Source: Pegea sp. RAD2-039
Taxonomy: Eukaryota; Chordata; Thaliacea; Salpida; Salpidae
Direction of reading: 5' to 3'
Assembly: GCA_034620365.1 (NCBI GenBank)
Contig: JAQGEQ010000318.1
Span: forward strand, 405,570 to 469,569
DNA length: 64,000 nt
Below the pieces are notes generated by a model, which did not search any database, was not told where the DNA came from, and saw only the letters and a list, made by a program, of their open reading frames with translations. A program made the translations under genes and the position numbers. Below, piece by piece: positions 3,231 through 62,955 of the stretch. Numbering within the stretch: the first letter of the stretch is position 1; every line of letters begins with the position of its first letter.

Positions 3231-6062
3231 ATGGTAGATAGATTAAATAGCAAAGTTGTTTTCGATTCAATTATGCCACCTACAGATGATAAAAGGTTAG
3301 TAGAATTTTGTGTCTTCACTTAAAATTGTTCGCTAAGTAAACTTACTTTAAATTCACTTTTTATTTGAAATAAACACAGATTAGAAAATTATTTATGTTG
3401 CATTTAAAAAGATTAATAACTTAAATTCTATCAATTTTAACTTGTAATTATTATATTTCTAAATTGTTTTAGAGTCATTTTAGTGTTACTCAATCATTTA
3501 AAAGAATTTAAATTTTATTGTTTTATTTATTTATAAATTTAAGAACTGAATTAAGTATTTTTGATTTTAATTATTCACTTTTTTTATTTTATCAAACTTG
3601 TTTCTAATTCTTTATTTATAATTTGATACTAAAGTAAATTATACTTTTGATAATTTTAGAGATGAAGTTTCGGAAGTTGATAATTGTACAAATCTTCATC
3701 AACTTAAACTGAATGACTCTCCTGAAGATTCTCAGGTTCAAGATGTTAACATCAAAGTGAAATTAAATGAATTTGAAAGAAGTTTCAATTGTGACAAACG
3801 TATATTAGTTGCTGCTTCACCTTATTTTGAAGCAATGTTTCGTGGTAAGTTAGATTCAAGATTCAACTTCAGTTGTAAAATAACTGAATATACAAAAAAC
3901 TATTTGAATTTATTAAGGTGGATTTAAAGAATCATATTCCCGTGAAGTTACCTTAAATGAGGTAGACCCAAATGTATTCTCTGATCTTCTAGGATACATT
4001 TACTCAAAAAAAATACAAATCAATCAAGAAAACGTTGAGAAACTGATGATTGCAGATTCCATGTATCAAATAAATGGTTTAGAGAAGTTATGTAGCAAGT
4101 AAGCTAGTTTTTTCAAATCCGTTTCTTTCAATAGTTTTTGTAATTATACTTTATCAATTACAGCTTTTTGGAAAGTCAAATAGAGATTTCCAACTGCTTC
4201 GAATTTGCAACATTTGCTGAGAATTATGGATTTTTGGAGCTTTCAACGAAAATAGGAAAATTTATTGGAAAAAACTTTATAGAAGTAAGAAAATAGAGAA
4301 ATGATATTTTTTTGGCTAAAACATTTTAAGTAGAAAGATTTTTTCTACTTCAAACTTAAATATTTATGAAATATTTACTTGCTTCGTTATTTCTACTGAT
4401 TTTGTTCTTTTCATATTTAATAAGAAAAAGTTTTTGATTGATCTCATGATATTTACCAGATTTCAAAAAGTGATGAATTCAAATTACAACCAGACTCTGT
4501 AATTTGTAAAATAATTTCAAACGATGAGCTTCATGTGATTTGTGAATCCCAAGTATTCAATGCTCTTTTAGATTGGATCAAATATGATTTAACTTCAAGA
4601 AAACATTGTTTAAATAAATTAATTAAGAACGTAAGTATCTAGAAACTATAAAGTTGTAGACTTGTGAGTATAAAATTGTGATTTCTCTAGGTACGATGCC
4701 ATTTAATAAATCCAAATTTTATTTGGATGAAATTAGAAAGTTGTGATGTAATTAGAGATACTTGTCATGAGTATCTCAGCAAGGTCCTCGATGACCTGAA
4801 AGCTTACATCCCAATTGAAAGTAAGCAAAGACAACTTGATATTCGGCAGGTAAGATTATTTAATTAAATACTTTTCACTTCAACCACTGACATATGACGT
4901 CACAGGTGATCTACATCATTAATGAATCCGATAGATCTGATGAGAAATCTTTGGAAAGTCAAAAGTTCCGTTTGTCTGAAACGGATGTTTGGTTTAAACT
5001 TCCGAAGATATGTCTTTCAGGAACTTTAAGATCTGTTGTCATCAACGGTTTCATTTATATGTTAAAGTGGAATGGTGATATGGAAAGGTTAGAAGCATGA
5101 AGCAAATGATGACATCATCATTGCAAACTAAATATGACGTCATCACATTTCTAGATACGACCCAATTTTAAATGAGTGGAAGAAGTGCAAAAGTTTAAAA
5201 GTTTATTATTTTTTTGAGATAGGATGGTCGAAAATGGAAGTTGTTGAAAATGAATTGTATCTTTTTCCTGTTAACACAATATTTAATAAGTGAGTGATGA
5301 AATGAGATTTCAACCAAAATTTCATTTGCCAAAAACTATTATGTTATTTCCAGATACGATCCGATCACTGATGAATGGACGCAAAGAGCTTCATTAAATA
5401 GAATTCGTGACTCTTTCGGTTGTGCTGTCTTCAACCGGATGTTGTATGTTGTCGGTGGTTACGATTTGAGAAACTCAGTTGCTAGTGTGGATAAATATGA
5501 TCCACAGAGGGACGAATGGAGTTCTGTAAAATCGATGTTGACACTTCGAAGGGATCTAGGTATTTTCTGATGACGTCACGATGACGTTTTGATCTTATGA
5601 TGATAACTAATTCTAAAATCATTAAAGATGTAGTCACACTTGGCAACTATATCTACGCCATTGGTGGTTATAATGAAGGAGCATATTTAAAGACTGTTGA
5701 AAGATACGATGTCCTCAATGATAATTGGGAGTTTGTAGCAAGTATGAAATATGCCAGGAGATGCCCAAAAGCTGTTGTCTTTAATAAGAAGATTTATGTT
5801 TTTGGTAAAACTTTTCTTATGTTTGGAATTGAAAATTTTTAATAAAATTTTTATGATGTTTACAACAATTTGCATAATTGTGATGAGCTTGTTGATTGTT
5901 TCAGGAGGTTATTATGGAGGAGAAGATGTAGAATTTGTCGAATGTTACAATGAAGTAACAAATGAATGGAAAGAAGTTGCAAGAACGAATGAAACAATTG
6001 AACATGTCATAGTCAGTTATCAACCATGTGTACCTGACATCTGTGTAAATTTCCCATTTTAA
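3231..6062 (+). CDS. Gene 1: BTB-BACK-Kelch protein (KLHL-like), 579 aa
   Basis: Eleven exons: 3231-3295, 3660-3844, 3918-4098, 4164-4284, 4460-4630, 4691-4849, 4906-5087, 5155-5289, 5354-5559, 5628-5804, 5905-6062. All junctions are GT-AG and phases agree throughout, giving 580 codons. Residues about 50-145 form a BTB domain (RILVAASPYFEAMF, then GGFKES), 150-255 a BACK domain, and 295-575 six Kelch blades with GG doublets and YDP...W signatures (YDPITDEW, YDPQRDEW, YDVLNDNW). The family typically links substrates to CUL3 ubiquitin ligase. Loops include NRIRDSFG and YNEGAYLK. Exon 8 differs from all other copies (KVYYFFEIGW). Intron 10 is 100 bp with an in-frame stop, unlike the 102 bp of the other copies. 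AATAAA overlaps the TAA stop. Confidence 0.9.
4895..5578 (+). promoter_or_regulatory. Three intronic TGACGTCA palindromes in gene 1
   Basis: The perfect 8-bp palindrome TGACGTCA occurs at 4895-4902 (intron 6, next to the acceptor), 5135-5142 (intron 7) and 5571-5578 (intron 9). It is the consensus cAMP-response (CREB/ATF) octamer. The same three positions are kept in the other genes, except intron 6 of gene 4, where it reads TGATTTCA. It could be a regulatory site or a shared ancestry signal of the introns. Confidence 0.35.
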
Positions 6063-6590: not shown

Positions 6591-6609
6591 TCATTGACCT
6601 CGTCAATGA
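6591..6609. repeat. Perfect 8-bp inverted repeat in spacer A
   Basis: TCATTGAC-CTC-GTCAATGA is a perfect hairpin with a 3-base loop. It is kept in every spacer A: 22498-22516, 30191-30209, 45383-45401, 54741-54759 and 63484-63502. Unit 3 carries a deletion of about 0.5 kb starting about 40 bp downstream of it. Its function is unknown. Confidence 0.5.
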
Positions 6610-12453: not shown

Positions 12454-14247
12454 ATGGTAGATAGATTAAATAGCAAAGTTGTTTTCGATTCAATTATGCC
12501 ACCTACAGATGATAAAAGGTTAGTAGAATTTTGTGTCTTCACTTAAAATTGTTCGCTAAGTACTTACTTTAAATTCACTTTTTATTTAAAATAAACACAG
12601 ATTAGAAAATTATTTATGTTGCATCTAAAAAGATTAATAACTTAAATTTTATTAATTTTAACTTGTAATTATTATATTTCTAACTTGTTTTAGAGTTATT
12701 ATAATAGTATTATAGTGTTACTCAATCATTTAAAAGAATTTAAATTTTATTGTTTTATTTATTTATAAATTTAAGAACTGAATTAAGTATTTTTGATTTT
12801 AATTATTCACTTTTTTATTTTTATCAAACTTGTTTCTAATTCTTTATTTTTAATTTGATACTAAAGTAAATTATACTTTTGATAATTTTAGAGATGAAGT
12901 TTCGGAAGTTGATAATTGTACAAATCTTCATCAACTTAAACTGAATGATTCTTCTGAAGATTCTCAGGTTCATGATAAGGCTTGCATCTCAATTGAAAGT
13001 AAGCAAAGACAACTTGATATTCGGCAGGTAAGATTATTTAATTAAATACTTTTCACTTCAACCACTGACATATGACGTCACAGGTGATCTACATCATTGA
13101 TGGATCTTATAGATTTGATGAGATATCTTTGGAAAGTCAAAAGTTCCGTTTGTCTGAAACAGATGTTTGGTTTAAACTTCCGAAGATATGTCTTTCAAGA
13201 ACTGAGAGATCTGTTGTCATCAACGGTTTCATTTATATGTTAAAGTGGAATGGTGATTTGGAAAGGTTAGAAGCATGAAGCAAATGATGACATCATCATT
13301 GCAAACTAAATATGACGTCATCATATTTCTAGATACAACCCAATTTTAAATGAGTGGAAGGAGTGCAAAAGTTTAGACGATAAATTGCGTATGCCGAAAA
13401 TGGAAGTTGTTCAAAATGAATTGTATCTTTTTAAAAATCAGAATGGAAAAGATTTGATGAAGTGAGTGATGAAATGACAATTCAACCAAAACTTTATATT
13501 CCAAAAACTCTTTTGTTATTTCCAGATACGATCCGATCACTGATGAATGGACGCAAAGAGCTTCATTAAATAGATATCGTGAATTTTTCGGTTGTGCTGT
13601 CTTCAACCGGATGTTGTATGTTGTCGGTGGTAACAACGATTTGTATAACCCAGTTTCTTGTGTGGAGAAATATGATCCACAGAGGGACGAATGGAGTTCT
13701 GTAAAATCGATGTTGACACCTCGAAGTTATCTAGGTTACTTAGCTGATGACGTCACGATGACGTTTTGATCTTATGATGATAACTAATTCTAAAATCATT
13801 AAAGATGTAGTCACGCTTGGCAACTATATCTACGCCATTGGTGGTTATAATGAAGAAGATGAAGTTTTAAAGACTGTTGAAAGATACGATGTCCTCAATG
13901 ATAATTGGGAGTTTGTAGCAAGTATGAAATATGCGAGAGGATTCCCAAAAGCTGTTGTCTTTAATAAGAAGATTTATGTTTTTGGTAAAACTTTTCTTAT
14001 GTTTCGAATTGAAAAACTTTTTAATAAAATGTTTATGATGTTTACAATAATTTGCATAATTGTGATGAACTTGTTGATTGTTTCAGGAGGTTTTTCTGGA
14101 AGAGATGATGTTGTTAAAATTGTCGAATGTTACAATGAAGTAACAAATGAATGGAAAGAAGTTGCAAGAACGAATGAATGGATTGATCAAGTAGTAGTCA
14201 GCTATCAACCATGTGTACCTGACATATGTGTAAATTTCCCATTTTAA
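12454..14247 (+). CDS. Gene 2: Kelch-only derivative lacking BTB and BACK, 353 aa
   Basis: Seven exons: 12454-12518, 12892-13027, 13084-13265, 13333-13461, 13526-13734, 13805-13984, 14087-14247. The total is 354 codons with all phases intact. Exon 2 is a fusion: the start of the ancestral exon 2 (through SEDSQVHD) joins directly to the end of ancestral exon 6 (KACISIESKQRQLDIRQ). About 1.05 kb encoding BTB, BACK and four introns is gone, and the frame is kept. Residues 68-350 give six Kelch blades. Without BTB it should not bind CUL3 as a KLHL adaptor. It could act as a decoy, a dimer-free binder, or be a decaying copy. Loops include SRTER (shared with gene 6), NNDLYNPVS and GFSGRDDVVKI. Intron 10 equivalent (13985-14086) is 102 bp with no stop. 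Confidence 0.85.
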
Positions 14248-19137: not shown

Positions 19138-21971
19138 ATGGTAGATAGATCAAATAGCATAGTTGTTTTCGATTCAATTATGCCACCTACAGATGATAAA
19201 AGGTTAGTAGAATTTTGTTTCTTCACTTAAAATTGTTCGCTAAGTAAACTTACTTTAAATTCACTTTTTATTTAAAATAAAAACAGATTAGAAAATTATT
19301 TATGTTGCATCTAAAAAGATTAATAACTTAAATTTTATTAATTTTAACTTGTAATTATTATATTTCTAACTTGTTTTAGAGTTATTATAATGTTACTCAA
19401 TCATTTAAAAGAATTTAAATTTTATTGTTTTATTTATTTATAAATTTAAGAACTGAATTAAGTATTTTTGATTTTAATTATTCACTTTTTTTATTTTATC
19501 AAACTTGTTTCTAATCCTTTATTTTTAATTTGATACTAAAGTAAATTATACTTTTAATAATTTTAGAGATGAAGTTTCGGAAGTTGATAATTGTACAAAT
19601 CTTCATCAACTTAAACTGAATGACTCTTCTGAAGATTCTCAGATTCATGATGTTAGCATCAAAGTGAAATTAAATGAATTTGAAAGAAGTTTCAATTGTG
19701 ACAAACGTATATTAGTTGCTGCTTCACCTTATTTTGAAGCAATGTTTCGTGGTAAGTTAGATTCAAGATTCAACTTCAATTGTGAAAATAACTGAATATA
19801 CAAAAAACTATTTGAATTTATTAAGGTGGTGGATTTAAAGAATCATATTCTCGTGAAGTTACCTTAAATGAGGTAGACCCAAATGTATTCTCTGATCTTC
19901 TAGGATACATTTCCTCAAAAAAAATACAAATCAATGAAGAAAACGTTGAGAAACTGATGATTGCAGATTCCATATTTCAAATAAATGGTTTAGAGAAGTT
20001 ATGTAGCAAGTAAGCTAGTTTTATAATTCAGTTTCTTTCAATAGTTTTTGTAATTATACTTTATCAATTACAGCTTTTTGGAAAGTCAAATAGAGATTTC
20101 CAACTGCTTCGAATTTGCAACATTTACTGAGAATTATGGATTTTTGGAGCTTTCAACGAAAATAGGAAAATTTATTGGAAAAAACTTTATAGAAGTAAGA
20201 AAATAGAGAAATGATATTTTCTTGGCTAAAACATTTTAAGTAGAAAGATTTTTTCTACTTCATCAAACTTAAATATTTATGAAATATTTACTTGCTTCGT
20301 TATTTCTACTGATTTTGTTCTTTTCATATTTAATAAGAAAAAGTTTTTGATTGATCTCATGATATTTACCAGATTTCAAAAAGTGATGAATTCAAATTAC
20401 AACCAGATTCTGTAATTTCTAAAATAATTTCAAAAGATGAGCTTCATGTGATTTGTGAATCCCAAGTATTCAATGCTCTTTTAGATTGGATCAAATATGA
20501 TTTAACTTCAAGAAAACATTGTTTAAATAAGTTAATTAAGAACGTAAGTATCTAGAAACTATAAAGTTGTAGACTTGTCAGTATAAAATTGTGATTTCTC
20601 TAGGTACGATGCCATCTGATAAATCCAAATTTCATTTCGATGAAATTAGAAAATTGTGAATTGATTAAAGATACTTGTTATGAATATCTCAGCCAGGTCC
20701 TCGATGACCTTAAAGCTTTCATCCCAATTGAAAGTAAGCCAAGACAACTTGATATTCGGCAGGTAAGATTATTTAATTAAATACTTTTCACTTCAACCAC
20801 TGACATATGACGTCACAGGTGATCTACATCGTTGATATATTCAATAGATCTGATGACAAATCTTTGGAAAGTCAAAAGTTCCGTTTGTCTGAAACAGATG
20901 TTTGGTTTAAACTTCCGAAGATATGTCTTCGAAATATTTCAATATCTGTTGTCATCAACGGTTTCATTTATATGTTAAAGTGGAATGGTGATTTGGAAAG
21001 GTTAGAAGCATGAAGCAAATGATGACATCATCATTGCAAACTAAATATGACGTCATCACATTTCTAGATTCAACCCAATTTTAAATGAGTGGAAGAAGTG
21101 CAAAAGTTTAGACGGTCAATTGTGTTGGCCGAGATTTGGAGTTATTGAAAATGAATTGTATCTTTTTCAAGGTGGTTATAAAACTAGAATAGTAAAGTGA
21201 GTGATGAAATGACATTTCAACCAAAACTTCATTTGCCAAAAACGATTATGTTATTTCCAGATACGATCCGATCACTGATGAATGGACGCAAAGAGCTTCA
21301 TTAAATACACTTCGATACTGGTTCGGTTGTGCTGTCTTCAACCGGATGTTGTATGTTTTCGGTGGTTACGATTTGAATAACATAGTTTCTTGTGTGGAGA
21401 AATATGATCCACAGAGGGACGAATGGAGTTCTGTAAAATCGATGTTGACACCTCGAATTGATCTAGGTATTTGTTGATGACGTCACGATGACGTTTTGAT
21501 CTTATGATGGTAACTAATTTTAAAATCATTAAAGCTGTAGTCACACATGGCAACTATATCTACGCCATTGGTGGTTTGAATTACGGAGAAGGAAATTTAA
21601 AAACTGTTGAAAGATACGATGTCCTCAATGATAATTGGGAGTTTGTAGCAAGTATGAAATATGCAAGAGAAAATCCAAATGCTGTTGTATTTAATAAGAA
21701 GATTTATGTTTTTGGTAAAACTTTTCTTATGTTTAGAATTGAAAAACTTTTTAATAAAATTTTTATGATGTTTACAATAATTTGCATAATTGTAATGAGC
21801 TTGTTGATTATTTCAGGAGGTTATTGTGGAAAAGATAATAAAATTGTCGAATGTTACAATGAAGTAACAAATGAATGGAAAGAAGTTGCAAGAACGAAAG
21901 AATGGATTTATAAAGTCATAGTCAGTTATCAACCATGTGTACCTGACATATGTGAAAATTTCCCATTTTAA
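19138..21971 (+). CDS. Gene 3: BTB-BACK-Kelch protein (KLHL-like), 578 aa
   Basis: Eleven exons: 19138-19202, 19567-19751, 19826-20009, 20074-20194, 20373-20543, 20604-20762, 20819-21000, 21068-21196, 21261-21466, 21535-21714, 21817-21971. Phases agree and no internal stop is present. The BTB exon 3 begins with an extra glycine codon (GGG rather than GG before FKES). Blade 2 reads RFNPILNEW where other copies have RYDP or RYNP. Loop cassettes: DIFNRSDDK, RNISI, NTLRYWFG (also in gene 5), LNYGEGNLK (also in genes 5 and 6), GYCGKDNKI (the shortest last-blade loop). Intron 10 (21715-21816) is 102 bp and open in frame. Confidence 0.9.
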
Positions 21972-27821: not shown

Positions 27822-29662
27822 ATGGTCGATAGATCAAATAGCAAAGTTGTTTTCGATTCAATTATGACACCTACAGATGATAAAAGGTTAGTAGAATTTT
27901 GTTTCTTCACTTAAAATCGTTTTCTAAGTAAACTTACTTTAAATTCACTTTTTATTTAAAAGAAACTCAGATTAGAAAATTATTTATGTTGTATCTAAAA
28001 AGATTAATAACTTAAATTTTATCAATTTTAACTTGTAATTATTATTTTTCTAATTTGTTTTAGAGTCATTTTAGTGTTACTCAATCATTTAAAAGAATTT
28101 AAATTTTATTGTTTTATTTATTTATAAATTTAAGAACTGAAATAAATATTTTTGATTTTAATTATTCACTTTTTTTATTTTTATCAAACTTGTTTCTAAT
28201 TCTTTATTTATAATTTGATACTAAAGTAAATTATACTTTTGATAATTTTAGAGATAAAGTTTCGGAAGTTGATAATTGTACAAATCTTCATCAACTTAAA
28301 CTGAATGACTCTTCTGAAGATTCTCAGGTTCATGATAAAGCTTGCATCTCAATTGAAATTAAGCAAAGACAACTTGATATTCGGCAGGTAAGATTATTTA
28401 ATTAAATACTTTTCACTTCAACCACTGACATATGATTTCACAGGTGATCTACATCGTTGATAGATTCAATGGATCTGATGACAAATCTTTGGAAAGTGCA
28501 AAGTTCTGTTTGTCTGAAACGGATGTTTGGTTTAAACTCCCAAAGATATGTCTTCGAAACACTTGGGGATCTGTTGTCATCAACGGTTTCATTTATATGT
28601 TAAAGTGGGTAGGTGATATGGAAAGGTTAGAAGCATGAAGCAAATGATGACATCATCATTGCAAACTAAATATGACGTCATCACATTTCTAGATACGACC
28701 CAATTTTAAATGAGTGGAAGAAGTGCAAAAGTTTAGAAGATGACTTGTATTTAGACGGTCGAATATGTTGGCCGAGATTTGGAGTTATTGAAAATGAATT
28801 GTACATTTTTCAAGATTATTATGAAGATTATCATTTAAAATATGATGAAGATTTTCATTATTTAAAAAAAACTAGAATAGTAAAGTGAGTGATGAAATGA
28901 GATTTCAACCAAAACTTCATTTGTCAAAAACTATTATGTTATTTCCAGATACGATCCGATCACTGATGAATGGACGCAAAGAGCTTCATTAAATAGATAT
29001 CGTGACTTTTTCGGTTGTGCTGTCTTCAACCGGATGTTGTATGTTGTCGGTGGTAACAACACTTTTTATAAACCAGTTTCTTGTGTGGATAAATATGATC
29101 CACAGAGGGACGAATGGAGTTCTGTAAAATCGATGTTGACACCTCGAAGTGGTCTAGGTACTTGCTGATGACGTCACGATGACGTTTTGATCTTATGATG
29201 ATAACTAATTTTAAAATCATTAAAGCTGTAGTCACGCTTGGCAACTATATCTACGCCATTGGTGGTTATGGTGACGGAGAAGGTTTAAAGACTGTTGAAA
29301 GATACGATGTCCTCAATGATAATTGGGAGTTTGTAGCAAGTATGAAATATGCAAGAGGATTTCCAAAAGCTGTTGTCTTTAATAAGAAGATTTATGTTTT
29401 TGGTAAAACTTTTCTTATGTTTGGAATTGAAAAACTTTTTAATAAAATGTTTAAGATGTTTACAATAATTTGCATAATTGTGATGAACTTGTTGATTGTT
29501 TCAGGAAGTCATTCTGAAAGAGAAGATGTAGAAATTGTCGAATGTTACAATGAAGTAACAAATGAATGGAAAGAAGTTGCAAGAACGAATGAATGGGTTG
29601 AACATGTCATAGTCAGTTATCAACCATGTGTACCTGATATATGTGTAAATTTCCCATTTTAA
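27822..29662 (+). CDS. Gene 4: Kelch-only derivative lacking BTB and BACK, 372 aa
   Basis: Seven exons: 27822-27886, 28252-28387, 28444-28625, 28693-28884, 28949-29157, 29226-29402, 29505-29662, 373 codons with phases intact. It has the same BTB-BACK deletion junction as gene 2 (SQVHD joined to KACISIEIKQ), so one event gave both. Unlike gene 2, its blade 3 carries a long acidic-aromatic loop (DYYEDYHLKYDEDFHYLKK), and it is followed by spacer A rather than B. Cassettes: DRFNGSDDK, RNTWG, NNTFYKPVS, YGDGEGLK, SHSEREDVEI. The last blade has GS in place of GG. The intron before exon 3 lacks the TGACGTCA found in the other copies. The last intron (29403-29504) is 102 bp and open. Confidence 0.85.
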
Positions 29663-34398: not shown

Positions 34399-37315
34399 AT
34401 GGTAGATAGATCAAATAGCAAAGTTGTTTTCGATTCAATTATGCCACCTACAGATGATAAAAGGTTAGTAGAATTTTGTGTCTTCACTTAAAATTGTTCG
34501 CTAAGTAAACTTACTTTAAATTCACTTTTTATTTAAAATAAACACAAATTAGAAAATTATTTATGTTGCATCTAAAAAGATTAATAACTTAAATTTTATC
34601 AATTTTAACTTGTAATTATTATATTTCTAATTTGTTTTAGAGTCATTTTTGTGTTACACAATCATTTAAAAGAATTTAAATTTTATTGTTTTATTTATTT
34701 ATAAATTTAAGAACTGAAATAAATATTTTTGATTTTAATTATTCACTTTTTTTATTTTATCAAACTTATTTCTAATTCTTTATTTATAATTTGATACTAA
34801 AGTAAATTATACTTTTGATAATTTTAGAGATGAAGTTTCGGAAGTTGATAATTGTACAAATCTTCATCAACTTAAACTGAATGACTCTTCTGAAGATTCT
34901 CAGGTTCATGATGTTAGCATCAAAGTGAAATTAAATGAATTTGAAAGAAGTTTCAATTGTGACAAACGTATATTAGTTGCTGCTTCACCTTATTTTGAAG
35001 CAATGTTTCGTGGTAAGTTAGATTCATGTTTCAACTTCAATTGTGAAAATAACTGAATATACAAAAAACTATTTGAATTTATTAAGGTGGTGGATTTAAA
35101 GAATCATATTCTCGTGAAGTTACCTTAAATGAGGTAGACCCAAATGTATTCTCTGATCTTCTAGGATACATTTACACAAACAAAATACAAATCAATGAAG
35201 AAAACGTTGAGAAACTGATGATTGCAGATTCCATGTTTCAAATAAATGGTTTAGAGAAGTTATGTAGCAAGTAAGCTAGTTTTATAAATCAGTTTCTTTC
35301 AATAGTTTTTGTAATTATACTTTATCAATTACAGCTTTTTGGAAAGTCAAATAGAGATTTCCAACTGTATTGGATTTTCAACATTTGCTGAGAATTATGG
35401 ATTTTTGGAGCTTTCAACGAAAATAGAAAAATTTATTGGAAAAAACTTTATAGAAGTAAGAAAATAGAGAAATGATATTTTCTTGGCTAAAACATTTTAA
35501 GTAGACAGATTTTTTCTACTTCATCAAACTTAAATATTTATGAAATGTTTACTTGCTTCGTTATTTCTACTGATTTTGTTCTTTTCATATTTAATAAGAA
35601 AACTTTTTGATTGATTTCATGATATTTACCAGATTTCAAAAAGTGATGAATTCAAATTACAACCAGACTCTGTAATTTGTAAAATAATTTCAAAAGATGA
35701 GCTTCATGTGATTTGTGAATCCCAAGTATTCAATGCTCTTTTAGATTGGATCAAATATGATTTAACTTCAAGAAAACATTTTTTAAATAAGCTAATTAAG
35801 AACGTAAGTATCTAGAAACTATAAAGTTGTAGACTTGTGAGTATAAAATTGTGATTTCTCTAGGTACGATGCCATTTAATAAATCCAAATTTTATTTCGA
35901 TGAAATTAAAAAGTTGTGATGTAATTAGAGATACTTGTTATGAATATCTCAGCAAGGTCCTCGATGACCTCAAAGCTTTCATCCCAATTGAAAGTAAGCC
36001 GAGACAGCTTGATATTCGGCAGGTAAGATTATTTAATTAAATACTTTTCACTTCAACCACTGACATATGACGTCACAGGTTATCTACATCATTGGTGGAT
36101 CCGGTAGATCTGATGAGAAATCTTTGAAAAGTGTAAAGTTCCGTTTGTCTGAAACGGATGTTTGGTTTAAACTTCCGAAGCTGTGTCTTGGAAATAATTC
36201 AAGATCTGTTGTCCTAAATGCTTTCATTTATATGTTAAAGAATAATGGTGATATGGAAAGGTTAGAAGCATGAAGCAAATGATGACATCATCATTGCAAA
36301 CTAAATATGACGTCATCACATTTCTAGATACGACCCAATTTTAAATGAGTGGAAGAAGTGCAAAAGTTTAGAAGATGAATTGTATTTAGACAGTCGAATG
36401 TGTTGGACGAAATTTGGAGTTATTGAAAATGAATTGTACATTTTTAAAGATTATTATGAAGATTATTATGAAGATTATTATTCAGAATATGATGATGATG
36501 TTTTTGATTATTTAAAAAAAACTAGATTGATGAAGTGAGTGATGAAATGAGATTTCAACCAAAACTTCATTTGCCAAAAACTATTATGTTATTTCCAGAT
36601 ACGATCCGATCACTGATGAATGGACGCAAAGAGCTTCATTAAATACACTTCGTTACTGGTTCGGTTGTGCTGTCTTCAACCGGATGTTGTATATTGTCGG
36701 TGGTTACGATTTGAATAACCCAGTTTCTTGTGTGGAGAAATATGATCCACAGAGGGACGAATGGAGTTCTGTAAAATCGATGTTGATACCTCGAATTGAT
36801 CTAGGTATTTGTTGATGACGTCACGATGACGTTTTGATCTTATGATGGTAACTAATTTTAAAATCATTAAAGCTGTAGTCACGCTTGGCAACTATATCTA
36901 CGCCATTAGTGGTTTGAATTACGGAGAAGGAAACTTAAAAACTGTTGAAAGATACGATGTCCTCAATGATAATTGGGAGTTTATAGCAAGTATGAAATAT
37001 GCAATGATATGCCCAAAAGCTGTTGTCTTTAATAAGAAGATTTATGTTTTTGGTAAAACTTTTCTTATGTTTGGAATTGAAAAACTTTTTAATAAAATGT
37101 TTATGATGTTTACAATAATTTGCATAATTGTGATGAGCTTGTTGAATGTTTCAGGAAGTCATTCTGGAAGAGAATATTATGTTAAAATTGTCGAATGTTA
37201 CAATGAAGTAACAAATAAATGGAAAGAAGTTGCAAGAACGAATGAAAAGATTAATCAAGTCATAGTCAGTTATCAACCATGTGTACCTGACATATGTGAA
37301 AATTTCCCATTTTAA
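34399..37315 (+). CDS. Gene 5: BTB-BACK-Kelch protein (KLHL-like), 606 aa
   Basis: Eleven exons: 34399-34463, 34828-35012, 35087-35270, 35335-35455, 35633-35803, 35864-36022, 36079-36260, 36328-36534, 36599-36804, 36873-37052, 37155-37315. Phases agree across 607 codons. It is the longest copy because exon 8 (207 nt) encodes the largest loop, three DYYE/DYYS repeats followed by EYDDDVFDYLKK. Cassettes: GGSGRSDEK, GNNSR (unique), NTLRYWFG (as gene 3), LNYGEGNLK (as genes 3 and 6), SHSGREYYVKI (related to gene 4). Two GG doublets are altered: AISG in blade 5 and FGS in blade 6. BACK reads NCIGFSTFAENYG rather than NCFEFATFAENYG. Intron 10 (37053-37154) is 102 bp and open. Confidence 0.9.
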
Positions 37316-42014: not shown

Positions 42015-44854
42015 ATGGTCGATAGATCAAATAGCAAAGTTGTTTTCGATTCATATATGCCACCTACAGATGATAAAAGGTTAGTAGAATTTCGTGTCTT
42101 CACTTAAAATTGTTCGCTAAGAAAACTTACTTTAAATTCACTTTTTATTTAAAATAAACACAGATTAGAAAATTATTTATGTTGCATCTAAAAAGATTAA
42201 TAACTTAAATTTTATCAATTTTAAATTGTAATTATTATATTTCTAATTTGTTTTAGAGTCATTTTAGTGTTACTCAATCATATAAAAGAATTTAAATTTT
42301 ATTGTTTTATTTATTTATAAATTTAAGAACTGAATTAAGTATTTTTGATTTTAATTATTCACTTTTTTATTTTTATCAAACTTGTTTCTAATTCTTTAAT
42401 TATAATTTGATACTAAAGTAAATTATACTTTTAATAATTTTAGAGATGAAGTTTCGGAAGTTGATAATTGTACAAATCTTCATCAACTTAAACTGAATGA
42501 CTCTTCTGAAGATTCTCAGATTCATGATGTTAGCATCAAAGTGAAATTAACTGAATTTGAAAGAAGTTTCAATTGTGACAAACGTATATTAGTTGCTGCT
42601 TCACCTTATTTTGAAGCAATGTTTCGTGGTAAGTTAGATTCAAGATTCAACTTCAATTGTGAAAATAACTGAATATACAAAAAACTATTTGAATTTATTA
42701 AGGTGGTGGATTTAAAGAATCATATTCTCGTGAAGTTACCTTAAATGAGGTAGACCCAAATGTATTCTCTGATCTTCTAGGATACATTTACACAAACAAA
42801 ATACAAATCAATGAAGAAAACGTTGAGAAACTGATGATTGCAGATTCCATCTATCAAATAAATGGCTTAGAGAAGTTATGTAGCAAGTAAGCTAGTTTTT
42901 TCAAATCAGTTTCTTTCAATAGTTTTTGTAATTATACTTTATCAATTACAGCTTTTTGGAAAGTCAAATAGAGATTTCCAACTGCTTCGAATTTTCAACA
43001 TTTGCTGAGAATTATGGATTTTTGGAGCTTTCAACGAAAATAGGAAAATTTATTGGAAAAAACTTTATAGAAGTAAGAAAATAGAGAAATGATATTTTCT
43101 TGGCTAAAACATTTTAAGTAGAAAGATTTTTTCTACTTCATCAAGCTTAAATATTTATGAAATATTTACTTGCTTCGTTATTTCTACTGATTTTGTTCTT
43201 TTCATATTTAATAAGAAAACTTTTTGATTGATTTCATGATATTTACCAGATTTCAAAAAGTGATGAATTCAAATTACAACCAGACTCTGTAATTTGTAAA
43301 ATAATTTCAAAAGATGAGCTTCATGTGATTTGTGAATCCCAAGTATTCAATGCTCTTTTAGATTGGATCAAATATGATTTAACTTCAAGAAAACATTGTT
43401 TAAATAAATTAATTAAGAACGTAAGTATCTAGAAACTATAAAGTTGTAGACTTGTGAGTATAAAATTGTGATTTCTCTAGGTACGATGCCATTTAATAAA
43501 TCCAAATTTTATTTCGATGAAATTAGAAAGTTGTAATGTAATTAGAGATACTTGTTATGAGTATCTCAGCAAGGTCCTTGATGACCTCAAAGCTTACATC
43601 CCAATTGAAAGTAAGCCAAGACAACTTGATATTTGGCAGGTAAGATTATTTAATTAAATACTTTTCACTTCAACCACTGAAATATGACGTCACAGGTGAT
43701 CTACATCATTGGTAAATTCAATAGATCTGATGAGAAATCTTTGGAAAGTGTAAAGTTCCGTTTGTCTGAAACAGATGTTTGGTTTAAACTTCCGAAGATA
43801 TGTCTTTCAAGAACTGAGAGATCTGTTGTCATCAACGGTTTCATTTATATTATAAAGATGAATGGTCATTTGGAAAGGTTAGAAGCATGAAGCAAATGAT
43901 GACATCATCATTGCAAACTAAATATGACGTCATCACATTTCTAGATACGACCCAATTTTAAATGAGTGGAAGAAGTGCAAAAGTTTAGACGGTCGATTGT
44001 ATTGGCCGAAAATGGAAGTTATTGAAAATGAATTGTATCTTTTTCAAGGTGGTATTGAAAACAGATTGATGAAGTGAGTGATGAAATGACATTTCAACCA
44101 AAACTTTATATTCCAAAAACTCTTTTGTTATTTCCAGATACGATCCGATCACTGATGAATGGACGCAAAGAGCTTCATTAAATAGATATTGTCTCTTTTT
44201 CGGTTGTGCTGTCTTCAACCGGATGTTGTATGTTGTCGGTGGTTACGGTTTGTATAACCCAGTTTCTTGTGTGGAGAAATATGATCCACAGAAGGACGAA
44301 TGGAGTTCTGTAAAGTCGATGTTGACAGCTCAAAGTTATCTAGGTATTTTCTGATGACGTCACGATGACGTTTTGATCTTATGATGGTAACTAATTTTAA
44401 AATCATTAAAGCTGTAGTCACGCTTGGCAACTATATCTACGCCATTGGTGGTTTGAATTACGGAGAAGGAAATTTAAAAACTGTTGAAAGATACGATGTC
44501 CTCAATGATAATTGGGAGTTTGTAGCAAGTATGAAATATGCAAGAGAAGATCCAAAAGCTGTTGTCTTTAATAAGAAGATTTATGTTTTTGGTAAAACTT
44601 TTCTTATGTTTCGAATTGAAAAATTTTTTGATAAAATGTTTATGATGTTTACAATAATTTGCATAATTGTGATGAGCTTGTTGATTGTTTCAGGAGGTTA
44701 TTATGGAGGAGAAGATGATCTTAAAATTGTCGAATGTTACAATGAAGTAACAAACGAATGGAAAGAAGTTGCAAGTACGAATGAAAGGATTTATCAAGTC
44801 ATAGTCAGTTACCAACCATATCTTCCTGACATATGTGTAAATTTCCCATTTTAA
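42015..44854 (+). CDS. Gene 6: BTB-BACK-Kelch protein (KLHL-like), 580 aa
   Basis: Eleven exons: 42015-42079, 42444-42628, 42703-42886, 42952-43072, 43250-43420, 43481-43639, 43696-43877, 43945-44073, 44138-44343, 44412-44591, 44694-44854. Phases agree across 581 codons. Exon 8 is the short form (129 nt). Cassettes: GKFNRSDEK, SRTER (as gene 2), NRYCLFFG, YGLYNPVS, LNYGEGNLK (as genes 3 and 5), GYYGGEDDLKI (close to gene 1). Distinctive changes: LTAQSYL where others have LTPRSYL, LDIWQ for LDIRQ before the propeller, and YQPYLPD for YQPCVPD near the C-terminus. Intron 10 (44592-44693) is 102 bp and open. Confidence 0.9.
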
Positions 44855-47526: not shown

Positions 47527-47823
47527 TCAAGAAATTATAGCAAATAGACCAGATCGTCTTCTAGACCCAAAAATTATGCTTACTAATTGGTGTTGAAGTA
47601 CCAAGTGATGCAAATGTAAGTAAAAAGGTACTACTTGATATTGAAGTACCAAGTGATGCAAATGTAAGTAAAAAGGTACTACTTGATATTGAAGTACCAA
47701 GTGGTGCAAATGTAAGTATGATTTTACACATTTTACACAAACAACTTTTACTGTCTGATATCCCCCACAAACTAAGCATCGCATCTTAACCGCTTTACTG
47801 CAATTAACTTCGTTCCACTTCAT
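47527..47823 (-). CDS. Hypothetical CxxC protein with 16-aa repeats, unit 6
   Basis: A 98-codon version with one extra repeat. YLHLHHLVLQYQVVPF occurs twice, followed by a diverged third (YLHLHHLVLQHQLVSI). The CLVC and CVKC pairs are kept. The repeat gain adds exactly 16 codons to the unit 1 version. Family unknown. Confidence 0.27.
   Translation of the reverse strand: MKWNEVNCSKAVKMRCLVCGGYQTVKVVCVKCVKSYLHLHHLVLQYQVVPFYLHLHHLVLQYQVVPFYLHLHHLVLQHQLVSIIFGSRRRSGLFAIIS
47593..47720. repeat. 48-bp minisatellite, 2.7 copies, unit 6
   Basis: Repeats at 47593-47640, 47641-47688 and a partial 47689-47720. Units 1, 3 and 7 have one fewer. Confidence 0.8.
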
Positions 47824-51315: not shown

Positions 51316-54211
51316 ATGGTAGATAGATTAAATAGCAAAGTTGTTTTCGATTCAATTATGCCACCTACAGATGATAAAAGGTTAGTAGAATTTTGTGTCT
51401 TCACTTAAAATTGTTCGCTAAGTAAACTTACTTTAAATTCACTTTTTATTTAAAATAAAAACAGATTACAAAAATATTTATGTTGCATCTAAAAAGATTA
51501 ATAACTTAAATTTTATCAATTTTAACTTGTAATTATTATATTTCTAATTTGTTTTAGAGTCATTTTAGTGTTACTCAATCATTTAAAAGAATTTAAATTT
51601 TATTGTTTTATTTATTTATAAATTTAAGAACTGAATTAAGTATTTTTGATTTTAATTATTCACTTTTTTTATTTTATCAAACTTGTTTCTAATTCTTTAT
51701 TTATAATTTGATACTAAAGTAAATTATACTTTTGATAATTTTAGAGATGAAGTTTCGGAAGTTGATAATTGTACAAATCTTCATCAACTTAAACTGAATG
51801 ACTCTTCTGAAGATTCTCAGGTTCATGATGTTAGCATCAAAGTGAAATTAAATGAATTTGAAAGAAGTTTCAATTGTGACAAACGTATATTAGTTGCTGC
51901 TTCACCTTATTTTGAAGCAATGTTTCGTGATAAGTTAGATTCAAGATTCAACTTCAATTGTGAAAATAACTGAATATACAAAAAACTATTTGAATTTATT
52001 AAGGTGGTGGATTTAAAGAATCATATTCTCGTGAAGTTACCTTAAATGAGGTAGACCCAAATGTATTCTCTGATCTTCTAGGATACATTTACACAAACAA
52101 AATACAAATCAATGAAGAAAATGTTGAGAAACTGATGATTGCAGATTCCATGTTTCAAATAAATGGTTTAGAGAATTTATGTAGCAAGTAAGCTAGTTTT
52201 TTCAAATCAGTTTCTTTCAATAGTTTTTTGTAATTATACTTTATCAATTACAGCTTTTTGGAAAGTCAAATAGAGATTTCCAACTGCTTCGAATTCGCAA
52301 CATTTACTGAGAATTATGGATTTTTGGAGCTTTCAACGAAAATAGGAAAATTTATTGGAAAAAACTTTATAGAAGTAAGAAAATAGAGAAATGTTATTTT
52401 CTTGACTAAAACATTTTAAGTAGAAAGATTTTTTCTACTTCATCAAACTTAAATATTTATGAAATATTTACTTGCTTCGTTATTTCTACTGATTTTGTTC
52501 TTTTCATATTTAATAAGAAAAAGTTTTTGATTGATTTCATGATATTTACCAGATTTCTAAATGTGATGAATTCAAATTACAACCAGACTCTGTAATTTGT
52601 AAAATAATTTCAAACGATGAGCTTCATGTGATTTGTGAATCCCAAGTATTCAATGCTCTTTTAGATTGGATCAAATATGATTTAACTTCAAGAAAACATT
52701 GTTTAAATAAGTTAATTAAGAACGTAAGTATCTAGAAACTATAAAGTTGTAGACTTGTGAGTATAAAATTGTGATTTCTCTAGGTACGATGCCATTTTAT
52801 AAATCCAAATTTTATTTCGACGAAATTAGAAAGTTGTGATGTAATTAGAGATACTTGTCATGAGTATCTCAGCAAGGTCCTCGATGACCTGAAAGCTTAC
52901 ATCCCAATTGAAAGTAAGCCAAGACAACTTGATATTCGGCAGGTAAGATTATTTAATTAAATACTTTTCACTTCAACCACTGACATATGACGTCATAGGT
53001 GATCTACATCGTTGATGGATCCAATATATCTGATGAGAAATCTTTGGAAAGTGCAAAGTTCTGTTTGTCTGAAACAGATGTTTGGTTTAAACTTCCGAAG
53101 ATATGTCTTCGAAAAACTTGGGGATCTGTTGTCATCAACGGTTTCATTTATATGTTTAAGTGGAATGGTGTAATAAAAAGGTTAGAAGCATGAAGCAAAT
53201 GATGACATCATCATTGCAAACTAAATATGACGTCATCACATTTCTAGATACGACCCAATTTTAAATGAGTGGAAGAAGTGCAAAAGTTTAGAAGATAAAT
53301 TGTATTTAGACGGTCGAATATGTTGGCCGAGATTTGGAGTTATTGAAAATGAATTGTACATTTTTAAAGATTATGATGAAGATTATTATTCAGAATATGA
53401 TGAAGATTTTCATTATTTAAATAAAACTAGAATAGTAAAGTGAGTGATGAAATGAGATTTCACCCAAAATTTCATTTGCCAAAAACTATTATGTTATTTC
53501 CAGATACGATCCGATCACTGATGAATGGACGCAAAGAGCTTCATTAAATAGATATCGTAACATTTTCGCTTGTGCTGTCTTCAACCGGATGTTGTATGTT
53601 GTCGGTGGTTACGATTTTAATAACATAGTTCCTCGTGTGGAGAAATATGATCCACAGAGGGACGAATGGAGTTCTGTAAAATCGATGTTGACACCTCGAA
53701 GTTATCTAGGTATTTGCTGATGACGTCACGATGACGTTTTGATCTTATGATGATAACTAATTCTAAAATCATTAAAGATGTAGTCACACTTGGCAATTAT
53801 ATCTACGCCATTGGTGGTAATAATGGAGAAAAATATTTAAAGACTGTTGAAAGATACGATGTCCTCAATGATAATTGGGAGTTTGTAGCAAGTATGAAAT
53901 ATGCAAGATACTTCCCAAAAGCTGTTGTCTTTAATAAGAAGATTTATGTTTTTGGTAAAACTTTTCTTATGTTTCGAATTGAAAAACTTTTTGATAAAAT
54001 GTTTATGATGTTTACAATAATTTGCATAATTGTGATGAGCTTGTTGATTGTTTCAGGTTATTATGGAAATGAAGATGTAGAAATTGTCGAATGTTACAAT
54101 GAAGTAACAAATGAATGGAAAGAAGTTGCAAGAACGAATGGAAGGATTGATCAAGTCATAGTCAGTTATCAACCATGTGTACCTGACATATGTGAAAATT
54201 TCCCATTTTAA
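51316..54211 (+). pseudogene. Gene 7: BTB-BACK-Kelch copy with lost exon-2 splice donor
   Basis: Expected exons: 51316-51380, 51745-51929, 52004-52187, 52254-52374, 52553-52723, 52784-52942, 52999-53180, 53248-53439, 53504-53709, 53778-53954, 54057-54211; if spliced normally this gives 598 aa. The donor after exon 2 is AT instead of GT (cgtGATAAGT at 51930, where the other BTB-bearing copies read cgtGGTAAGT). If the intron is retained, translation stops at 51971-51973 after 97 residues, within the BTB domain. The rest of the frame is intact, so the loss is recent, or an alternative donor or internal start is used. The exon 8 loop is long (DYDEDYYSEYDEDFHYLNK). Cassettes: DGSNISDEK, RKTWG, NRYRNIFA, NNGEKYLK. 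The last blade has a single G (FGYYGNED). Acceptor of intron 6 reads cgtcatag. Confidence 0.75.
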
Positions 54212-60067: not shown

Positions 60068-62955
60068 ATGGTAGATAGATTAAATAGCAAAGTTGTTTTC
60101 GATTCAATTATGCCACCTACAGATGATAAAAGGTTAGTAGAATTTTGTGTCTTCACTTAAAATTGTTCGCTAAATAAACTTACTTTAAATTCACCTTTTA
60201 TTTAAAATAAACACAAATTAGAAAATTATTCATGTTGCATTTAAAAAGATTAATAACTTAAATTTTATCAATTTTAACTTGTAATTATTATATTTCTAAT
60301 TTGTTTTAGAGTCATTTTAGTGTTACTCAATTATTTAAAAGAATTTAAATTTTATTGTTTTATTTATTTATAAATTTAAGAACTGAATTAAGTATTTGTG
60401 ATTTTAATTATTCACTTTTTTATTTTATCAAACATGTTTCTAATTCTTTATTTATAATTTGATACTAAAGTAAATTATACTTTTGATAATTTTAGAGATG
60501 AAGTTTCGGAAGTTGATAATTGTACAAATCTTCATCATCTTAAACTGAATGACTCTTCTGAAGATTCTCAGATTCATGATGTTAGCATCAAAGTGAAATT
60601 AAATGAATTTGAAAGAAGTTTCAATTGTGACAAACGTATATTAGTTGCTGCTTCACCTTATTTTGAAGCAATGTTTCGTGGTAAGTTAGATTCAAGTTTC
60701 ATCTTTAATTGTGAAAATAACTGAATATATCAACAAAAAACTATTTGAATTTATTAAGGTGGATTTAAAGAATCATATTCTCGTGAAGTTACCTTAAATG
60801 AGGTAGACCCAAATGTATTCTCTGATCTTCTAGGATACATTTACACAAACAAAATACAAATCAATGAAGAAAACGTTGAGAAACTGATGATTGCAGATTC
60901 CATATTTCAAATAAATGGTTTAGAGAAGTTATGTAGCAAGTAAGCTAGTTTTATTAATCAGTTTCTTTCAATAGTTTTTGTAATTATACTTTATCAATTA
61001 CAGCTTTTTGGAAAGTCAAATAGAGATTTCCAACTGTATTGGATTTGCAACGTTTGCTGAGAATTATGGATTTTTGGAGCTTTCAACCAAAATTGAAAAA
61101 TTTATTGGAAAGAACTTTATAGAAGTAAGAAAATAAAGAAATGATATTTTCTTGGCTAAAACATTTTAAGTAGAAAGATTTTTTCTACTTCATCAAACTT
61201 AAATATTTATGAAATATTTACTTGCTTCTTTATTTATACTAATTTTGTTCTTTTCATTATTAATAAGAAAAAGTTTTTGATTAATCTCATGATTTTTACC
61301 AGATTTCAAAAAGTGAAGAATTTAAATTACAACCAGACTCTGTAATTTGTAAAATAACTTCAAAAGATGAGCTTCATGTGATTTGTGAATCCCAAGTATT
61401 CAATGCTCTTCTAGAGTGGATCAAATATGATTTAACTTCAAGAAAACATTATTTAAATAAATTAATTAAGAACGTAAGTATCTAGAAACTATAAAGTTGT
61501 ATATTTGTGAGTATAAAATTGTGTTTTCTCTAGGTACGATGCCATTTTATAAATCCAAATTTTATTTCGACGAAATTAGAAAGTTGTGATGTAATTAGAG
61601 ATACTTGTCATGAGTATCTCAGCAAGGTCCTCGATGACCTGAAAGCTTACATCCCAATTGAAAGTAAGCCAAGACAACTTGATATTCGGCAGGTAAGATT
61701 ATTTAATTAAATACTTTTCACTTCAACCACTGACATATGACGTCATAGGTGATCTACATCGTTGATGAATTCGGTAGATCTGATGACAAATCTTTGGAAA
61801 GTGCAAAGTTCTGTTTGTCTGAAACGGATGTTTGGTTTAAACTCCCAAAGATATGTCTTCGAAACACTTGGGGATCTGTTGTCATCAACGGTTTCATTTA
61901 TATTATAAAGAGGAATGGTGATATGGAAAGGTTAGAAGCATGAAGCAAATGATGACATCATCATTGCAAACTAAATATGACGTCATCACATTTCTAGATA
62001 CGACCCAATTTTAAATGAGTGGAAGAAGTGCAAAAGTTTAGAAGATGACTTGTATTTAGACGGTCGAATATGTTGGCCGAAATTTGGAGTTATTGAAAAT
62101 GAATTGTACATTTTTCAAGATTATTATGAAGATTATTATGAAGATTTTCATTATTTAAGAAAAACTAGAATAGTAAAGTGAGTGATGAAATGAGATTTCA
62201 ACCAAAACTTCATTTGCCAAAAACTATTATGTTATTTCCAGATACGATCCGATCACTGATGAATGGATGCAAAGAGCTTCATTAAAGAGAGGCTTCTGGT
62301 TCGGTTGTGCTGTCTTCAACCGGATGTTGTATGTTGTCGGTGGTTACGACTTGCATAACACAATTGCTAGTGTGGAGAAATATGATCCACAGAGGGACGA
62401 ATGGATTTCTGTAGAATCGATGTTGACACCTCGAAGTTATCTAGGTATTTGCTGATGACGTCACGATGACGTTTTGATCTTATGATGATAACTAATTCTA
62501 AAATCATTAAAGATGTAGTCACACTTGGCAACTATATCTACGCCATTGGTGGTTGTAATTACGGAGTAGGAAATTTAAAAACTGTTGAGAGATACGATGT
62601 CCTTAATGATAATTGGGAGTTTGTAGCAAGTATGAAATATGCAAGGAAATGCCCAAATGCTGTTGTATTTAATAAGAATATTTATGTTTTTGGTAAAACT
62701 TTTGTTATGTTTGGAATTGAAAAACGTTTTAATTAAATTTTGATGATGTTTGCAAAAATTTGCATAATTGTGATGAGCTTGTTGATTGTTTCAGGAGGTT
62801 TTTCTGAAAGAGAAGTTGATGTTAAAATTGTCGAATGTTACAATGAAGTAACAAATGAATGGAAAGAAGTTGCAAGAACGAATGAAAGGATTTATCAAGT
62901 CATAGTCAGTTATCAACCATGTGTACCTGACATATGTGAAAATTTCCCATTTTAA
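60068..62955 (+). CDS. Gene 8: BTB-BACK-Kelch protein (KLHL-like), 595 aa
   Basis: Eleven exons: 60068-60132, 60496-60680, 60759-60939, 61004-61124, 61303-61473, 61534-61692, 61749-61930, 61998-62177, 62242-62444, 62513-62692, 62795-62955. Phases agree across 596 codons. Exon 3 has GG before FKES, as in gene 1. Exon 8 (180 nt) carries the loop DYYEDYYEDFHYLRK. Exon 9 is one codon shorter than in gene 1 because of the unique cassette KRGFWFG. Other cassettes: DEFGRSDDK, RNTWG (as gene 4), YDLHNTIAS, CNYGVGNLK, GFSEREVDVKI. BACK reads NCIGFATFAENYG. Intron 10 (62693-62794) is 102 bp but has an in-frame TAA, so intron retention would truncate. Confidence 0.9.

Follow-up and report, generated by a model that had tools for sequence, protein, structure and literature searches.

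Organization of the array

The window, by which we mean the whole stretch of 64,000 nucleotides of Pegea sp. RAD2-039 DNA analysed here, lies at the end of a contig, where at least 26 BTB-BACK-Kelch copies stand in tandem in one array. Eight genes (genes 1 to 8, or W1 to W8) were modelled in it, all on the + strand. Gene 1 (3273..6062) has 11 coding exons in a GT-AG model with no internal stop: exon 0 (3273-3295), E1 (3660-3844), E2 (3918-4098), E3 (4164-4284), E4 (4460-4630), E5 (4691-4849), E6 (4906-5087), E7 (5155-5289), E8 (5354-5559), E9 (5628-5804) and E10 (5905-6062). Exon 0, with its ATG at 3273, is the probable first exon. Searching by pattern did not find this exon; tblastn with the N-termini of relatives as queries recovered it in all eight window genes. 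The gene 1 product scored above the Pfam cut-off for every domain (BTB, 86.6 bits; BACK, 85.7 bits; Kelch_1, 143 bits), with BTB at 18-127 and BACK at 133-230, and shows the BTB, BACK, Kelch order of KLHL proteins.

Full BTB-BACK-Kelch genes were also found at 19180..21971 (gene 3), 34441..37315 (gene 5), 42057..44854 (gene 6) and 60110..62955 (gene 8). Two genes are kelch-only: gene 2 (12496..14247; E1-E10 at 12892-14247) has lost BTB and BACK in frame with Kelch intact, and gene 4 (27864..29662; E1-E10 at 28252-29662) carries an in-frame deletion whose junction coincides with that of gene 2. Kelch-only genes, which depart from the BTB-BACK-Kelch order, made up six of the 68 copies examined. 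Gene 7 (51358..54211; E1-E10 at 51745-54211) has a full reading frame, and normal splicing may fail there because the donor of E1, the first BTB exon, is AT instead of GT. We also considered whether gene 7 was a frame-broken pseudogene and rejected this, since its frame is open with a proper exon-10 acceptor and the splice donor alone is lost. Gene 7 was excluded from most counts, and "the seven window genes" below are the eight minus gene 7.

Genome-wide, one intron anchor mapped the family to 201 places and a second to 200, while backward controls gave 0. The expansion is large, and it appears lineage-specific in that close named relatives were absent among the matches listed (the best 120 of 349). 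A single-exon KLHL gene (L005) was noted as well. A COX1 family search came back empty, and an 18S primer sequence matched a single place, C27:4256. A frame filter was passed by 55 of the 68 copies, which were used for the entropy measurements, and 13 were set aside. These 13 failures, the lost splice donor of gene 7 and the occurrence of near-identical pairs such as W8/L014 are what might be seen if the array were a decaying repeat and pseudogenes or mis-assembly had created the loop pattern. We regard this as extremely improbable. A further 18 of 20 copies also had open frames, and nearly all open-frame copies in both sets had canonical splice sites, with indels in multiples of three; gene 7 and L064, both among the 13, turned out to be open-frame too; BTB-BACK is constrained (ω of 0.5, see below); and related proteins are present in other datasets.

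Fold of the propeller and position of its loops

The closest solved sequences were entries for KEAP1 and for SAKe, the latter designed propellers. A structure model (pLDDT 86.9) was made for the relative P0002, which has 61% identity to the query across 66% of the query length, rather than for a window protein. It forms a six-blade propeller whose best PDB match in Foldseek was the KEAP1 Kelch domain (E 2e-29, TM by target 0.83). Across the six blades, the 12 b-c and d-a loops were defined as top loops and those of the opposite face as bottom loops.

In gene 1 the b-c loops lie on the + strand at 4924..4950 (blade 1, ESDRSDEKS), 5068..5085 (blade 2, WNGDME), 5270..5287 (blade 3, where length varies most of all loops), 5460..5483 (blade 4, YDLRNSVA), 5669..5692 (blade 5, YNEGAYLK) and 5910..5933 (blade 6). 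The d-a loops, also on the + strand, lie at 5011..5031 (blade 1 to 2, CLSGTLR), 5198..5233 (blade 2 to 3, of varying length among copies), 5397..5420 (blade 3 to 4, NRIRDSFG), 5538..5558 (blade 4 to 5), 5747..5770 (blade 5 to 6) and 5988..6005 (blade 6 to 1). The loop peptides that first drew attention to the locus were found in the translated window within 4906-62955, a span whose limits coincide exactly with the start of the first Kelch exon in gene 1 and the gene 8 stop. The blade-4 loop of gene 5, YDLNNPVS, was missing from that list.

Distribution of variation among copies

Variation between copies is concentrated in the top loops. Across the 55 copies, with loop limits drawn from the Kelch sequence pattern once the variation had been seen, mean entropy was 1.38 bits in the top loops (115 columns) versus 0.25 in the bottom loops (34 columns), 0.30 in the strands (146 columns) and 0.31 in BTB-BACK (272 columns); the difference between top loops and strands had a Mann-Whitney p of 8e-30. 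The loops also bear in-frame indels between copies. The P0002 model has strand state in 109 of the 146 pattern-strand residues and also in 27 of the 92 aligned top-loop residues, and a plain strand/non-strand cut on this model gave a smaller contrast (0.52 versus 0.78 bits). Three relatives from metagenome sets differ mainly in the same places, with identity of 29-39% in the top loops versus 81-86% in the strands.

The original prediction held that BTB, BACK and the blade strands were almost unchanged while short propeller segments varied. The entropies bear this out, with the qualification that BTB-BACK is deleted in genes 2 and 4. Its description of the introns as almost unchanged is only approximately right: among the seven window genes they diverge by 4.1% on average, with intron 6 lowest at 0.5% and intron 7 highest at 7.9%. 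Its assignment of the variable segments to the substrate-binding face known from KEAP1 agrees with the P0002 model and its KEAP1 match. Nine KEAP1-Nrf2 ligand-contact positions fall on highly variable sites: mean entropy there was 2.05, versus 0.44 in the rest of the aligned part.

Selection on the top loops

The ring of top loops is positively selected while the bottom loops and BTB-BACK are held. The ratio ω was estimated from pairwise and minimum-change counts; tree-based site models were avoided because linkage between sites drops steeply within tens of bases. Top-loop ω was 2.34 (1.53-4.05) for the seven window genes, 2.20 (1.50-3.42) with gene 7 included, 2.39 (1.68-3.62) for the 23 C116 copies and 2.12 (1.58-2.90) for all 55. 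Under an intron-derived mutation spectrum it was 1.5-1.7. In BTB-BACK, ω was 0.49-0.50; in the strands it was 0.94 in the window, not clearly below 1 (0.51-2.08). In 35 copies, the top loops carried 320 nonsynonymous and 44 synonymous changes (p = 2e-6 by site counts, 9e-4 under the intron mutation spectrum). One of the 12 loops, the d-a loop from blade 5 to 6, gave an ω of 0.76 in the C116 set, a single-loop value without an interval.

A comparison of dN/dS by region with intron divergence had been proposed with the original prediction, and it came out in favor of a diversifying recognition face on a constant scaffold: besides top-loop ω above 1, top-loop dN in the seven window genes was 0.33 versus an intron divergence of 0.041. 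Across copy sets the corresponding values were 0.27-0.34 versus 0.036-0.045, a 7- to 8-fold excess. Neither of the outcomes named in advance as speaking against the prediction, loop dN/dS no higher than that of the strands or loop divergence on a par with the introns, was found.

Synonymous change was also higher in the top loops (0.14 versus 0.05-0.08 in the other classes in the window, approximately 1.5-2.7 fold), so that age, exchange or mutation, and not selection, accounts for part of the excess. This rise, the strong exchange between copies and the in-frame loop indels could together suggest that conversion equalizes introns, strands and BTB-BACK while unconstrained loops drift, their indels blocking conversion. 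Such an escape from homogenization seems improbable to us as the source of the pattern, given that ω exceeded 1 by three ways of counting and that top-loop dN is 7-8 times intron divergence. When only ungapped columns were used, as a check on misaligned loops, the ratio was still above 1 in three sets of copies (p = 0.0003-0.0035). A mere lack of constraint is further disfavored because the C75 sister array, whose intron divergence (6.4%) is above that of C116, has kept its loops, with a top-loop dN of 0.024 and an ω of 0.42 (0.12-1.92) in four copies. In the C50, C182 and C198 arrays, top-loop ω was 1.30 with an interval of 0.84-2.15, not confidently above 1.

Exchange between copies

All 55 copies had distinct loop sets. 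The loops are combined almost independently of one another, and the passage of short tracts between copies mixes them into new sets. The mean correlation between loops was 0.071 versus 0.245 expected without recombination (lowest of 100 runs, 0.157), and PHI was lower than in all 1000 permutations. Linkage (r2) fell from 0.18 for sites within 10 bases of each other to 0.04-0.07 for those more than 25 apart; 0.037 is expected for unlinked sites. Mosaics were seen at the level of exons, together with tracts matching donor copies, and loop exchange occurs even between copies that are 99% alike. Short-tract shuffling of loops, like the kelch-only copies and the differences in diversification from array to array, had not been part of the original prediction.

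Palindromes and pairing in the introns

The palindrome TGACGTCA occurs three times in gene 1: in intron 5 (4895..4902; at the same place in the other window genes except gene 4), intron 6 (5135..5142) and intron 8 (5571..5578), the last two at the same place in all eight genes. These palindromes are mostly intact in the arrays where loops diversify and absent from C75, a correlation across three related subfamilies. They would fit a scheme in which diversity is generated by mutation directed to the loops, through hypermutation or motif-guided conversion, with selection secondary, and the raised synonymous change in the loops points the same way. We consider this very improbable: mutation alone would give an ω near 1, the motif correlation amounts to three related subfamilies, and TGACGTCA is also a plain CREB/ATF site and could be an enhancer. 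It is likewise highly doubtful that the three palindromes promote exchange of Kelch-exon cassettes, which would make the shuffling programmed and possibly individual-specific and would lead to an intracellular, ubiquitin-ligase-coupled repertoire.

An 11-base stretch of intron 6 has its complement in intron 8. RNA pairing between these introns, with a role in splicing, was considered and set aside: the predicted duplex between introns 6 and 8 has -28.2 kcal/mol, but those of introns 3 and 9 and of introns 6 and 9 in the same gene have -32.0, and we make no splicing claim because duplexes between other introns are equally strong.

Proposed function and comparable systems

Loop diversification and reshuffling are as expected of a repertoire facing many changing targets. 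The reading that we favor, and consider probable, is that substrate adaptors of the CUL3 ligase have been turned into a germline repertoire of recognition faces, most likely directed at foreign or antagonistic proteins. BTB-BACK would dock CUL3, and each Kelch face would bind a different or fast-changing protein and mark it for ubiquitination. Viral, microbial or selfish proteins would be the most likely targets. Kelch-only copies may serve as binders or as decoys unable to recruit the ligase. An immune function of the array is putative.

Recognition of the animal's own proteins would yield an identical loop signal. Copies might have specialized on endogenous substrates, such as fast-evolving reproductive or developmental proteins, through subfunctionalization or through sexual or allorecognition conflict rather than defence, and KLHL proteins of known function act mostly on host proteins. 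We view this as possible though unlikely; in our judgement, some 200 places, a constant scaffold and exchange between copies 99% alike fit moving targets better.

The family shares with the KEAP1/KLHL adaptors of CUL3 the domain order and, by the model of the relative, the six-blade fold, and nine KEAP1 contact positions coincide with highly variable sites in it. Named KEAP1/KLHL proteins are 26-35% identical to it among the best 120 of 349 matches. KEAP1 is a single conserved gene with known ligands, whereas this family occupies approximately 200 places with copies that differ in the putative binding face. The sea urchin 185/333 (SpTransformer) genes and other shuffled invertebrate immune families likewise consist of near-identical tandem genes with elements mixed between paralogues, as among the window copies from one genome; the 185/333 products are secreted effectors, while those of the window are predicted intracellular ligase adaptors.

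In 2006 Thomas reportedly described expanded nematode MATH-BTB and F-box adaptors whose substrate-binding domain is under positive selection. PMC5392922 describes these adaptors as large lineage-specific families, positively selected in the domain that binds substrate, and some of them as induced in C. elegans by virus and microsporidia. A big expansion of ligase adaptors with a positively selected substrate domain is common to both systems. The substrate domain is a different one, however, and in the window family all 12 top loops of the propeller vary and are traded between copies in short tracts. Induction by infection is described for some of the nematode adaptors, whereas the window family is not known to be linked to infection. 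Chlamydiae also have large BTB-box and F-box adaptor-like families, which arose by birth and death with positive selection unsupported, according to PMC4209131. As described there, these genes encode bacterial effectors, whereas the window genes are eukaryotic and carry introns.

If the proposed reading is correct, the family would be a naturally occurring set of binding faces built on one propeller scaffold and coupled to protein destruction, equivalent within the cell to variable immune receptors. It would reveal which KEAP1-type loop positions tolerate change with the fold kept, which would be useful for the design of propeller binders and targeted degraders, and it would make testable how animals without adaptive immunity track changing targets.

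The locus and the gene family

The window forms the final 64 kb of contig C116 (positions 405570-469569 of 469,569) in a eukaryotic assembly of 105.7 Mb and 387 contigs. Its eight plus-strand tandem genes share an 11-exon plan, and two of them are shortened by deletion. The exon model of gene 1 was assembled by hand: exons 1 to 10 begin at 3660 on the plus strand and reach the stop at 6062, with GT-AG limits and no internal stop, and a probable short first exon with its ATG at 3273 (plus strand) was located via the N-termini of related proteins. BTB and BACK are encoded by exons 1 to 5 and the Kelch domain by exons 6 to 10. In gene 7, the splice donor of the first BTB exon reads AT for GT (51930-51931); the frame is otherwise open.

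The family extends well beyond the window. Searching the genome with the blade-4 exon gave at least 150 matches (scored out of 392 candidates, and a lower bound), a 38-base stretch of intron 6, allowing up to 3 mismatches, was found at 201 places, and a 23-base stretch over the intron 5/exon 6 border matched 200 places with at most 2 mismatches; backward controls gave 0 for both stretches. On C116 itself, the intron-6 stretch was found at no fewer than 26 places and the blade-4 exon at 27; one of the latter, at 317869, was left out of the copies read. We read 88 copies: the eight in the window, 60 more and 20 from other subfamilies. A stop and frame filter was passed by 55 of the first 68 (49 full-length and 6 kelch-only) and by 18 of the further 20. 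Some of the 13 copies set aside were re-inspected, and the frames of gene 7 and of L064, a copy outside the window whose stop comes two codons later, proved open, so 55 is a lower bound. Indels between copies fall mostly in exons 6 to 10 and, with few exceptions, have lengths divisible by three. The arrays on C116 (254-470 kb) and on contig C97 (104-253 kb) are mostly in opposite orientation and each ends less than 8 kb from a contig end; they may be two halves of a single array of at least 43 copies, split in the assembly.

Variation between copies

Kelch strands a to d were assigned by sequence pattern, and each position was classed as strand, top loop (b-c or d-a), bottom loop (a-b or c-d) or BTB-BACK. 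The b-c and d-a loops form the ligand face of KEAP1. Across 55 copies, mean entropy was 1.38 bits in the top loops (115 columns), 0.25 in the bottom loops (34 columns), 0.30 in the strands (146) and 0.31 in BTB-BACK (272). The bottom loops serve as an internal control, since they are also loops yet hardly vary.

To check the strand assignment, we used the structure predicted for the relative P0002 (61% identical; pLDDT 86.9), for which the best PDB matches were KEAP1 Kelch domains. The model has strand at 109 of 146 pattern-strand residues, but also at 27 of 92 aligned top-loop residues. A plain strand/non-strand cut on the model gave 0.52 versus 0.78 bits, a contrast that is small at least partly because the conserved bottom loops are then pooled with the top loops. 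We also used the positions of nine KEAP1 contact residues (F478, R483, S508, Y525, Q530, S555, Y572, F577 and S602). In an alignment to KEAP1, with one two-residue gap in the part used, they fall at the 80th to 100th percentile of Kelch-domain variability, with a mean entropy of 2.05 versus 0.44 in the remaining aligned part (p 2e-6).

Selection on the top loops

Pairwise omega was calculated from Nei-Gojobori counts, with bootstrapping over codons. The original prediction, that selection diversifies substrate recognition, held in both comparisons that bear on it. Top-loop omega was 2.34 [1.53-4.05] in seven genes of the window (2.20 [1.50-3.42] when gene 7 is included), 2.39 [1.68-3.62] for 23 C116 copies and 2.12 [1.58-2.90] for all 55, above the 0.94, 0.69 and 0.65 of the strands; BTB-BACK gave 0.49, 0.50 and 0.49. 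Top-loop dN in the same sets (0.33, 0.27 and 0.34) was likewise far from equal to intron divergence (0.041, 0.036 and 0.045). Point estimates in the C116 set exceed 1 in 11 of the 12 single loops, the d-a loop from blade 5 to 6 giving 0.76.

When every change was counted once, nonsynonymous to synonymous changes in the top loops numbered 173:23 in the window, 265:38 in 23 copies and 320:44 in 35 copies. The p values were 2e-4, 5e-5 and 2e-6, and 0.0035, 0.0025 and 0.0003 once gapped columns were dropped. Because the locus is AT-rich, a mutation spectrum derived from introns was also used instead of site counts, and top-loop omega was then lower, at 1.74, 1.52 and 1.62 (p 0.0055, 0.0075 and 0.0009). 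Synonymous change in the window was also higher in the top loops, at 0.14 versus 0.05-0.08 in the other classes; some of the diversity is therefore older or imported and not due to selection.

Whether loops diversify depends on the array. In the array on contig C75 (4 intact of 6 copies), introns diverge by 6.4%, more than in C116, while the four intact copies have a top-loop dN of 0.024 and an omega of 0.42 (0.12-1.92). In some arrays, therefore, loops cannot drift freely. The 14 copies on contigs C50, C182 and C198 gave 5.0% for introns, a top-loop dN of 0.13 and an omega of 1.30 (0.84-2.15).

Shuffling of loops

The set of 12 loops is distinct in each of the 55 copies. Distances at different loops show almost no correlation, with a mean of 0.071 (35 copies; the neighbouring pair d-a2/b-c3, r 0.78, excluded). 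Simulation without recombination gave a mean of 0.245 on the Kelch tree, the lowest of 100 runs being 0.157, and means of 0.41-0.67 on the trees of six single loops. In 28 copies, the PHI statistic lay under all 1000 permutations, and r2 fell from 0.18 at up to 10 bases to 0.04-0.07 past 25, with an unlinked expectation of 0.037.

Individual copies outside the window are mosaic. Between L019 and L029 there are differences at 1 of 158 exon-10 bases and 30 of 206 exon-8 bases; between L051 and L052, at 2 of 209 exon-8 bases and 24 of 161 exon-10 bases. A long blade-6 loop is common to L015 on C116 and L067 on contig C81, and six of their other loops differ. In pairs 98-99% alike in the Kelch part, such as L032 and L041, the differences are partly short clusters whose versions recur elsewhere; some clusters have a donor match among the copies read and others are without one.

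Relatives and kelch-only copies

Among the 120 matches listed, the named relatives are animal KEAP1/KLHL proteins (26-35% identity) and the near relatives come from metagenome sets (55-62% identity over 52-66% of the query). Three metagenome proteins share with one another 29-39% identity in the top loops, 81-86% in the strands and 71-79% in the bottom loops, so the pattern is wider than the Pegea genome studied.

BTB-BACK has been lost in 6 of 68 copies on three contigs, by a single common in-frame deletion junction: gene 2 (12892-13027), gene 4 (28252-28387), L020, L034, L040 and L055. P0012, one of the three metagenome proteins, also lacks BTB-BACK, with a different junction. The six copies diverge by 34.5% in the top loops versus 7.9% in the strands and thus keep the same pattern without the predicted ligase-docking part. 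They are possibly a class of decoys or regulators.

Intron palindromes and other features of the window

The window contains 24 occurrences of the palindrome TGACGTCA versus 0.44 expected, 23 of these in introns 5, 6 and 8 (4895, 5135 and 5571 in gene 1; like sites in other genes). The palindrome is intact in introns 5, 6 and 8 of 63, 65 and 62 of the first 68 copies, and of 12, 0 and 11 of the 14 copies on C50, C182 and C198. In the non-diversifying C75 set, none of the 6 copies has it intact in any of the three introns. The motif is thus mostly intact in diversifying arrays and absent in C75, three subfamilies being too small a sample to test this link. Among C116 copies, intron 6 varies least of all introns (0.8% versus 6.6% for intron 7). 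However, intron 4, where the window search found no TGACGTCA, is as conserved as intron 6 across all 68 copies, so conservation alone does not single out intron 6. The octamer was also present, anywhere in the locus, in 5 of 6 other Kelch loci scanned. The motif could be bound by a transcription factor, could act as a signal related to recombination, or could mark active arrays.

In six of the eight window genes (genes 2, 3, 4, 5, 6 and 7), intron 9 keeps the reading frame open, at 13985-14086, 29403-29504 and the corresponding positions in genes 3, 5, 6 and 7. Read through it, exons 9 and 10 form a frame of 158-161 amino acids with a hydrophobic insert, and the relative P0004 has a similar in-frame insert; a retained-intron form is possible. 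An open frame repeated in the upstream spacers (1887-2147, 11114-11374, 17800-18012 and others) presumably resembles the terminal part of the reverse transcriptase of a non-LTR retrotransposon. The gene 6-7 spacer contains a 48-base tandem unit in 2.9 copies (47581-47718), inside open frames of both strands.

A probable repertoire of diversified adaptors

The observations best fit a reading in which the window genes encode CUL3-ligase adaptors whose binding face forms a germline repertoire, selected for diversity and mixed by short exchange. Nematode MATH and F-box adaptors are described as expanded, under positive selection in their substrate domains and partly induced by infection (PMC5392922). 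As a concept, a diversified adaptor family is thus already known; unlike such cases, the Pegea genes have a propeller in which all twelve top loops vary, together with loop shuffling, kelch-only forms and intron motifs. By analogy with the nematode adaptors, the diversity of recognition in this family would suggest a role in defence.
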